A stretch of 39,508 nucleotides of DNA from NCBI GenBank assembly GCA_020723205.1, contig DYJF01000004.1:1-39508 (forward strand), given 5' to 3'. Made by a program: the position numbers and the translations under genes. The notes below the pieces were generated by a model that did no database searches, had not been told where the DNA came from, and saw nothing but the letters and a program-made list of their open reading frames with translations. This document shows, piece after piece, positions 32,396 through 33,326 of the stretch. Source of the DNA: Bdellovibrio sp. (GTDB lineage: Bacteria > UBA10199 > 2-02-FULL-44-16 > DYJF01). Numbering within the stretch: the stretch's first letter is position 1; each line of letters starts with the position of its first letter.

Positions 32396-32557
32396 AAATG
32401 TCGCACGAGGGCGGACTTCCACCCTCTGGTATTATTATCGGCACACCCCTCCCATAAGTTGCGTGGTTTTTTGGGGTGTAACTAATTGATAATGGGCCAT
32501 TTTTGGGCGACCCTGAAGCGTAGGGTATCTCTCCGCAATTTTTCGGCCTAGACAGTC

Positions 32558-32608
32558 GGGACGCTTCTCCTGTTCGCGAGAGTCCCACGCGAAAATGAGA
32601 AGCGTCCC
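32558..32608. repeat. REP-like stacked hairpin with concentric arms
   Basis: Outer arms GGGACGCTTCTC (32558-32569) and GAGAAGCGTCCC (32597-32608) and inner arms TTCGCG (32573-32578) and CGCGAA (32588-32593) share the same centre, 32583. It looks like a repetitive extragenic palindrome of the type mobilised by REP-associated transposases. Only one copy was seen in the window. Confidence 0.7.
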
Positions 32609-32615
32609 CTCCGGC

Positions 32616-32621
32616 TATAAT
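32616..32621 (+). promoter_or_regulatory. Candidate -10 element upstream of the tRNA-Gln locus
   Basis: A perfect TATAAT lies 49 bases before the first tRNA copy at 32670. No clear -35 is found; the preceding bases are in the stacked hairpin. It is the best promoter candidate for the disrupted and intact tRNA copies. Confidence 0.3.
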
Positions 32622-32669
32622 TTCTGTTGATTCTTTTTCTCAATTGGTTAGTTTTCCGCGGGACATTTT

Positions 32670-32794
32670 TCGGGGATCGTCTAACGGCAGGACTGCAGAC
32701 TCTGACTCTGCATATCTAGGTTCGGCCCGCCATGCGGCGGGCCGCCCCGCTGAATCCCGCCATTCGGCGGGATGAATAGCGGGGCGAATCCTAG
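32670..32794 (+). pseudogene. tRNA-Gln copy 1, broken: 60-bp palindromic insert in the T-loop and 3' acceptor lost
   Basis: Bases 32670-32724 are identical to the first 55 bases of the intact tRNA-Gln(CTG). They cover acceptor 5' strand, D-arm, anticodon arm and T-stem 5' strand up to TTCG of the T-loop. A 60-base insert (32725-32784) of two GC-rich hairpins follows, then CGAATCCTAG (32785-32794) resumes the T-loop and T-stem. The acceptor 3' strand TCCCCGA is replaced by CCAAGTT. It cannot make a working tRNA. Confidence 0.85.
32725..32784. repeat. GC-rich palindromic element inserted in a tRNA T-loop
   Basis: It consists of GCCCGCC-ATGC-GGCGGGC (32725-32742) and a second hairpin 32745-32784. 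The inner part of the second is CCCGCCATTCGGCGGG and its outer arms are CCCCGCT and AGCGGGG. The intact T-loop TTCGAAT reads TTCG, insert, CGAAT here, so a CG is duplicated at the borders. Confidence 0.8.
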
Positions 32795-32802
32795 CCAAGT
32801 TT

Positions 32803-33072
32803 ATGTATTACGTTTATATTTTGAAATTATGTAACGGCCAACTATATACGGGGTTTACTGAAGATCTAAAACGTCGTTTTTCGGAGCACAAATTGGGTAA
32901 AGTTGAGTCCACCCGGTATAGAAAACCGTTATCGTTGATACATTACGAAGCATATAGTAAAGAAAGTGACGCGCGCCGAAGGGAAAACTTTCTTAAGAAA
33001 TCTGAAGGTAAGAAGTATTTAAAGCTTCAAATCAGAGATTTATTGAAGGAATTAAATTCGGGGATCGTCTAA
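32803..33072 (+). CDS. Small GIY-YIG nuclease-domain protein
   Basis: The 89-residue product is a stand-alone GIY-YIG domain: YYVYILKLCNGQLYTGFTEDL holds the VYI and YTG motif strands, DLKRRFSEH the conserved Arg, and ARRRENFLKK the metal-binding Glu. The gene is about 35-40% GC, far below its neighbours, and has no clear ribosome site. It begins eight bases after tRNA copy 1. Its last codons and the TAA stop (33070-33072) lie inside the acceptor and D-arm of the intact tRNA-Gln. This short family is common in bacteria and of unclear role. The location suggests an insertion into, or spread with, the tRNA locus. Confidence 0.85.
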   Translation: MYYVYILKLCNGQLYTGFTEDLKRRFSEHKLGKVESTRYRKPLSLIHYEAYSKESDARRRENFLKKSEGKKYLKLQIRDLLKELNSGIV

Positions 33073-33128
33073 CGGCAGGACTGCAGACTCTGACTCTGCA
33101 TATCTAGGTTCGAATCCTAGTCCCCGAG
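33058..33128 (+). tRNA. tRNA-Gln(CTG), intact copy
   Basis: It folds as a complete 71-base cloverleaf without encoded CCA: acceptor TCGGGGA/TCCCCGA, D-stem GTCT/GGAC, anticodon stem GCAGA/TCTGC with loop CTCTGAC, T-stem CTAGG/CCTAG with loop TTCGAAT, discriminator G. The anticodon is CTG (reads CAG). The weak first pair U1-A72 and G73 are the known glutaminyl-tRNA synthetase identity features. The downstream bases are GCATAA, so CCA must be added. Confidence 0.95.
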
Positions 33129-33131
33129 CAT

Positions 33132-33160
33132 AAAAAAACTCCCCTTGCGGGAGTTTTTTT
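33132..33160 (+). terminator. Terminator after tRNA-Gln
   Basis: ACTCCC and GGGAGT pair around a CCTTGC-type loop, flanked by A7 before and T7 after. It starts four bases after the tRNA. Confidence 0.9.
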
Positions 33161-33174
33161 GTGCTCATGGTTGG

Positions 33175-33275
33175 ATGAGAACCGCCCGCCAAAGGCGGGC
33201 TGGTTCTGACCGAGCGCGGGTACCCACGAAGTGGGTGCGCGAGGAAATACCCGAAGCGCGACAGCGCGAAGGGTG
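33175..33275. repeat. Three GC-rich palindromes between tRNA-Gln and its duplicated 3' end
   Basis: In order: AACCGCCCGCC-AAA-GGCGGGCTGGTT, GCGCGGGTACCCAC-GAA-GTGGGTGCGCG type, and CCCGAAGCGCGACAGCGCGAAGGG type. No gene is seen. They resemble the insert in tRNA copy 1 in their CCCGCC/GGCGGG core. Confidence 0.7.
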
Positions 33276-33294
33276 GAATCCTAGTCCCCGAGCA
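33276..33294 (+). pseudogene. tRNA-Gln copy 3: 3' end only
   Basis: GAATCCTAGTCCCCGAGCA is an exact 19-base copy of 33112-33130, from mid T-loop to three bases beyond the acceptor stem. The break is in the T-loop, close to the break point of copy 1. Confidence 0.85.
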
Positions 33295-33326
33295 AAAAAA
33301 AGACCCCGGTTTTGCCGGGGTCTTTT
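33294..33326 (-). terminator. Terminator of the aldolase gene
   Basis: On the minus strand GACCCCGG/CCGGGGTC forms an 8-bp stem followed by a T8 run (33301-33294), 19 bases after the stop at 33345. On the plus strand it has a T4 run only. Confidence 0.88.

Follow-up and report, generated by a model that had tools for sequence, protein, structure and literature searches.

In one contig of a Bdellovibrio sp. (DYJF01000004.1), a nuclease gene stands between a disrupted and a complete copy of the same tRNA-Gln gene. We consider it probable, at roughly two chances in three, that this locus is a very small mobile element whose sole gene encodes a single-domain GIY-YIG nuclease of the SLX1/UPF0213 fold, and which would enter a tRNA gene at one of its loops, duplicating tRNA sequence and leaving a complete tRNA in place. 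Elements of this sort are apparently a widespread and undescribed kind of mobile element, entering tRNA genes of many phyla without destroying them. For the element in the window (the whole analysed stretch of 39,508 nucleotides), the insertion model is supported by sequence comparisons with other loci; that the nuclease drives the mobility is what we infer.

Three pieces of a tRNA-Gln gene

The locus occupies positions 32670-33326 of the forward strand and reads, in order, as a first tRNA-Gln copy with a double hairpin in its T-loop, the GIY-YIG gene, a complete tRNA-Gln, a terminator-like hairpin, a three-hairpin element, a tRNA-Gln 3' end and a second terminator-like hairpin. The original prediction had placed three pieces of tRNA-Gln(CTG) here, and all three are borne out. 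Copy 2 (33058-33129) is a complete tRNA-Gln(CTG) according to ARAGORN and Rfam (RF00005, 58.2 bits); 56 nt of copy 1 (32669-32724) are 100% identical to it, without a mismatch, and chance is therefore excluded; and copy 3 (GAATCCTAGTCCCCGAGCA, 33276-33294) is, as had been claimed, only the 3' end from the T-loop on, matching tRNA bases 55-73 exactly. Copy 1 (32670-32794) had been thought to end at a break in the T-loop. The loop is indeed interrupted, by an insert at 32723-32786, but the tRNA resumes after the hairpins with AATCCTAG (32787-94); copy 1 therefore retains the 3' strand of the T-arm and spans bases 1 to ~63, with only the 3' strand of the acceptor stem gone. From its initial TT (32721-22) the interrupted loop continues as CG, hairpin 1 (32725-32742), CG, hairpin 2 (32745-32784, itself nested) and CG, the CG of TTCGAAT thereby being present three times around the two hairpins (TT-CG-hp1-CG-hp2-CG-AATCC), and the same architecture is found at the loci L233, L234 and L235. 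A long imperfect palindrome (32549-32617; 30-nt arms, 80%) lies just 5' of copy 1.

The GIY-YIG gene (32803-33072, 89 codons, PF01541 at E 8.8e-14) is the sole gene of the block in the open reading frame listing, with no integrase, and its stop codon TAA (33070-33072) falls inside the complete tRNA-Gln. Downstream of that tRNA, a terminator-like inverted repeat (33126-33166) is followed by the structured three-hairpin element, here called E (33177-33281, ~104 nt; 98.7 bits against its covariance model), which directly precedes copy 3 and reaches into the tRNA 3' end, and by a second terminator-like inverted repeat (33298-33326). Neither the window hairpins nor element E match an Rfam family, and a known RNA family was rejected as their source. 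A group I intron splicing out of an interrupted tRNA was likewise rejected: no Rfam intron matches at the window locus, and a complete tRNA copy is there instead.

A single-domain nuclease

The predicted nuclease is 84-89 aa long and PF01541 is the only domain found in it, a separate DNA-binding domain besides the catalytic one being absent; such an extra domain is usual, though not universal, among free-standing GIY-YIG homing endonucleases. The active-site residues Y5, Y15, R25 and E61 are invariant in ten relatives. Among known structures, a profile built from ten relatives finds UPF0213 proteins (1zg2 and 1ywl, E about 1e-15) and, weakly, the SLX1 homologue 7wme (E 8e-6), and a group I intron endonuclease model matches one of the ten. 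The window nuclease has no match among the defence families of PADLOC. Its phage or plasmid relatives are few and distant, on which grounds an origin from phages or plasmids was rejected. At a locus of another genome (L126, G208:C26 ~175228-175803), two GIY-YIG genes are adjacent to one another with no tRNA detected nearby.

Recurrence beside tRNA genes across bacteria

Relatives of the nuclease were gathered in two ways: by a profile from 385 genomes, in which 88 genes of the same subfamily were counted with the profile-seeding members left out, and independently by using the window protein alone as a query against named genomes, which gave 80 loci, mostly from Patescibacteria, with others from Planctomycetota, Bacteroidota and further groups. 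Within 100 bp of the genes in the first sample lie 39 tRNAs on the same strand and none on the opposite one (2.2/kb, against a background of 0.02-0.04 tRNA/kb at 600-1480 bp, where the 900-1200 bp bin is empty); the second sample has 44 and none (2.8/kb vs about 0.1/kb beyond 1.1 kb). These counts, in which many records are MAGs and related rows are included uncorrected for kinship, amount to an enrichment of at least 20-fold over background in both samples and to a strand agreement of 83 to 0 within 100 bp over the two. A tRNA is found within 400 bp at 48 of the 80 second-sample loci, and about 40% of close homologues have none, which counts against the element as proposed. The UPF0213-type genes, more remote relatives present in the same genomes, are without a tRNA within 200 bp. 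Assembly artefact is an unlikely source of the arrangement because several carriers are single-contig genomes (e.g. G104, L101).

The original prediction had suggested looking for the same arrangement at other tRNA genes, and it is found at many isotypes: among the loci with a tRNA within 400 bp, a significant, disrupted repeat of that tRNA lies across the nuclease gene from the complete one in 77 of 111. The complete tRNA lies upstream of the gene in 44 of the 111, with the disrupted copy, where found, downstream. At 20 of the 67 loci with a downstream tRNA the GIY-YIG stop codon falls inside the complete tRNA, and the pseudo-tRNA often ends a few bases 5' of the nuclease start codon. Ten loci, including the window and L233, carry a further tRNA piece beyond the complete downstream tRNA. 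Two other associations were noted in passing. Near the GIY-YIG genes of L002, L019 and L026, tRNA-Thr or tRNA-Asn genes interrupted by introns of 260-295 nt, possibly group I introns, are predicted when ARAGORN is allowed to place introns; and at L001 and L010, repeats of the CCTGAGC..GTCGAAGG kind lie on either side of UPF0213-type GIY-YIG genes, which may be a separate association with REP sequences.

Hairpins, the invaded loop and nuclease clades

Hairpins are concentrated around the nuclease genes (2.35/kb within 100 bp vs 0.2-0.3 beyond 800 bp) and, within disrupted tRNA copies, in loops: 36 of 47 internal insertions fall there, with 41% expected by length, and none of 64 hairpin events falls in the acceptor stem. 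On a tree of 55 nucleases, in which the shortness of the protein leaves many forks weak, the loop that is invaded (D, anticodon or T) changes 17 times; shuffles give 22.7, and 2 of 500 are as low. The isotype switches often, with 33 changes among 53 rows. The insertion site follows the nuclease clade, while the isotype varies. The clade of the window nuclease (support 95/87) comprises the window genome, two Patescibacteria records and one Planctomycetota record at tRNA-Gln, Tyr, Ser and Ser, and the T-loop site is the same in all four (TT-CG-hp-CG-hp-CG-AATC). Its closest member to the window, L233 (69% identity, at tRNA-Tyr), repeats the window layout, with a 5' copy bearing the double hairpin, the nuclease, a complete tRNA-Tyr, and finally a T-arm, in which these hairpins recur, together with the tRNA 3' end.

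In a D-loop group, a pair of 15-nt hairpins is fitted into exactly 30 nt. All 84 of 84 cells in these hairpins are paired, 11 of them compensatory, and none of 500 shuffles, nor any slide, does as well in paired cells, compensatory cells or covariation score; the hairpins are therefore kept as structures. Whatever their role, compensatory change is expected of DNA hairpins as well as of RNA, and this bears on a reading in which the hairpin pseudo-tRNA acts as RNA, a tRNA-like leader or trailer by which the nuclease mRNA and the tRNA would be regulated in their processing or translation, the nuclease itself having a host function such as repair or defence. The compensatory changes would fit such a role, as would pseudo-tRNAs ending just before start codons and stop codons lying inside tRNAs; yet the first of these is equally expected of DNA, the order of complete and disrupted copies is reversed at the 44 loci described above, and no defence family was matched. 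We regard this reading as very improbable. Still less credible, to our minds, is the proposal that a Y1 transposase (RAYT) mobilises the hairpins as REP/REPIN-type elements, with tRNA loops merely as their target: the paired, inverted 15-nt hairpins do resemble REPINs and Y1_Tnp genes occur in six of eight genomes tested, but no Y1_Tnp (PF01797) was found in the window genome (G000) or in G008, both about 83% complete, and both the architecture of the hairpins and the loop that holds them are particular to the GIY-YIG clade. RAYT was rejected as the mover on the strength of the window genome.

Filled and empty alleles of a sister element

A pair of congeneric genomes provides the comparison that bears most directly on insertion. 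Genome G159 carries a GIY-YIG element (L093) in tRNA-Pro(CGG), with its insertion point in the D-loop, and in its congener G296 matching flanks (98%, 93% and 88% identity) enclose one complete tRNA-Pro, without hairpins, duplication or nuclease. The difference between the two starts at the tRNA 5' end and measures 379 bp, and removal of one unit gives the arrangement of G296. At the right end of the insert, tRNA bases 1-19 are repeated, restoring the 5' end of the tRNA, and a GIY-YIG open reading frame is the only gene of the insert, which has no integrase. Filled and empty alleles, a feature of homing endonucleases, are present for this sister of the element in the window, and the pair is direct evidence that the sister inserted into a tRNA loop and that the gene was restored. 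A single pair is compatible with gain or with precise loss; loss would need the exact removal of both hairpins and duplication.

The earlier proposal that a GIY-YIG block entered the tRNA loop and restored the gene thus gains from this pair and from the shared layout of L233, but the comparison it had recommended, the same locus without the block in relatives, revealed no empty state of the window locus; no tRNA adjoins the aldolase orthologues of the order. Between L042 and its congener G021 one flank only could be aligned, and no tRNA lies near the break.

Broken tRNA copies without the nuclease

Element E has a distribution of its own. Six copies occur in the window genome, of which the five examined (in the window, C51 and C78) reach into a neighbouring tRNA 3' end, and its covariance model, in which compensatory changes are seen, matches in 20 of 46 genomes of the class. 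Most full-length matches follow a complete tRNA (Gln, Glu, Ala, Ser, Arg, Leu, Pro or His) at a distance of ~41-57 nt and lead directly into an exact 3'-end copy from the T-loop, and most of these sites have no nuclease gene nearby. In a control, partial tRNA copies were found at 24 of 116 flanks of 60 tRNA genes in seven genomes, some of them being cross-matches between tRNAs. As the E sites and the control fragments show, broken tRNA copies extend in these genomes beyond the nuclease loci. A nuclease element on the side of copy 1 and an E element on the side of copy 3 may both be present at the window locus; the single block of ~550 bases in the original prediction draws support from the recurrence of the three-copy layout in L233, but copy 3 is part of an element that usually lacks the GIY-YIG gene, and the locus may be of two layers.

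Several further arrangements were observed. Positions 33-97 of the E model correspond to a dispersed REP-like repeat in G028, with about 60 copies of E's inner part. Contig C78 of the window genome (L181/L223) has tandem units of a tRNA-Ala(CGC) 3' end, a terminator and element E, and a third, different hairpin element before the same tRNA-Ala(CGC) 3' end, which looks like segmental amplification. In G035 (L170 and L176), complete tRNA-Lys and tRNA-Met are followed by a hairpin element holding inverted tRNA bases ~18-34 and then by the remainder of the tRNA towards its 3' end, starting at the D-loop or anticodon stem; the tRNA-Lys also has an upstream 5' piece, so that, without any GIY-YIG gene, a split copy encloses a full tRNA.

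It could be argued from such cases that tRNA genes were duplicated in tandem in the ordinary way, that REP-like hairpins then entered the redundant copy, and that the GIY-YIG gene is a passenger between the copies and not the cause. Element E and other disrupted copies without the gene speak for this, as do the repetitive nature of part of E and a two-hairpin pseudo-tRNA-Ala upstream of tRNA-Ala in G271, which lacks the nuclease present in its congener G131, a state that fits either a lost gene or hairpins inserted independently of the gene. Against a passenger, duplication, hairpins and gene are all present in G159 and all absent from G296, the insertion loop tracks the nuclease tree, and strand agreement near the genes is complete. 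On balance we think it rather unlikely, while taking it more seriously than the RNA and transposase readings above.

A possible mechanism and its limits

Under the mobile-element reading that we prefer, the nuclease would cut a tRNA gene in one loop characteristic of its clade, here the T-loop TTCGAAT, and repair of the break would copy the element in, in the direction of transcription. Some tRNA sequence would be duplicated at the same time, leaving the element between a complete tRNA and a disrupted copy, the outcome seen in the filled and empty alleles of the D-loop sister. The hairpin pair sits exactly in the attacked loop of the disrupted copy, where it may remove the cut site or serve as the element's recognition end. 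The tRNA's own promoter would transcribe the nuclease gene, a suggestion made because of the strict co-orientation and the stop codons inside tRNAs. Copy 3 would stem from E, another T-loop element with a dispersal of its own, which would have entered this tRNA as well. It sits awkwardly with this scheme that the complete tRNA keeps the presumed cut site in the carrier itself, and that interrupted tRNA copies are also seen where no GIY-YIG gene is present, in the control flanks, with element E and in G271.

A bolder version, which we offer only tentatively, would make these a class of minimal mobile elements that read tRNA genes by shape. The SLX1-like nuclease would recognise a stem-loop of the tRNA in its DNA form, as hairpin or cruciform, cut the loop and leave in it the double hairpin of conserved structure as a module for recognition and immunity, with non-autonomous forms such as E moved in trans.

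Relation to known systems

The nearest known system is SegB, a free-standing GIY-YIG homing endonuclease of phages T4/T6 that is enriched near tRNA genes of many isotypes, cuts inside tRNA genes at RAWTSGAAC and drives amplification of tRNA segments by recombination, as described in a survey of phage and archaeal-virus proteins (PMC13096335). The reverse complement of its motif, GTTCSAWTY, is the tRNA T-loop; this is our own reading, the T-loop being unmentioned in the main text of that paper (PMC13096335). Within 32.6-33.3 kb of the window the motif occurs in the complete tRNA only and is lost in copies 1 and 3. The bacterial genes resemble SegB in being statistically tied to tRNA genes of many isotypes. 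Whereas SegB is a phage enzyme in tRNA clusters, they are chromosomal, single-domain and inside one tRNA gene, and their elements, unlike SegB, restore the tRNA and carry clade-specific hairpin pairs in its loop. UPF0213 and SLX1-like proteins have the same fold by sequence profile, the UPF0213-type genes being without the tRNA neighbourhood.

tRNA genes are classic landing sites for integrases, and integrative elements with tyrosine recombinases enter a tRNA gene, restore it by a carried copy and leave a 3' fragment. The present elements also enter and restore a tRNA gene, but the 379-bp insert has a GIY-YIG gene only and no integrase, the site is a loop chosen by the clade (D, anticodon or T), and what accompanies the insertion is a complete extra tRNA or a 5' duplication, not the 3' end alone. 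With REP/REPIN sequences they share short paired palindromes dispersed in genomes; in contrast to those mobilised by RAYT, the hairpins lie in tRNA loops beside a GIY-YIG gene. A literature search, with preprints and most subscription journals outside its scope, found phage, mitochondrial and intron cases and no bacterial chromosomal GIY-YIG element resident in a tRNA gene.

A nuclease of ~85 residues without an integrase thus appears to use tRNA genes much as integrases do, in many phyla and, among the records sampled, most often in Patescibacteria, and the tRNA appears to be kept working by duplication. Elements of this kind would account for a large set of unassigned GIY-YIG genes and for scattered partial tRNA copies, and they provide a compact nuclease-target pair for biochemistry. 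If recognition by shape were true, one nuclease lineage could hop between isotypes and phyla with its loop unchanged, and if shape recognition by the hairpins were proven, the elements would deserve a class of their own. The finding makes testable the idea that the nuclease clade determines which loop of a tRNA gene is invaded.
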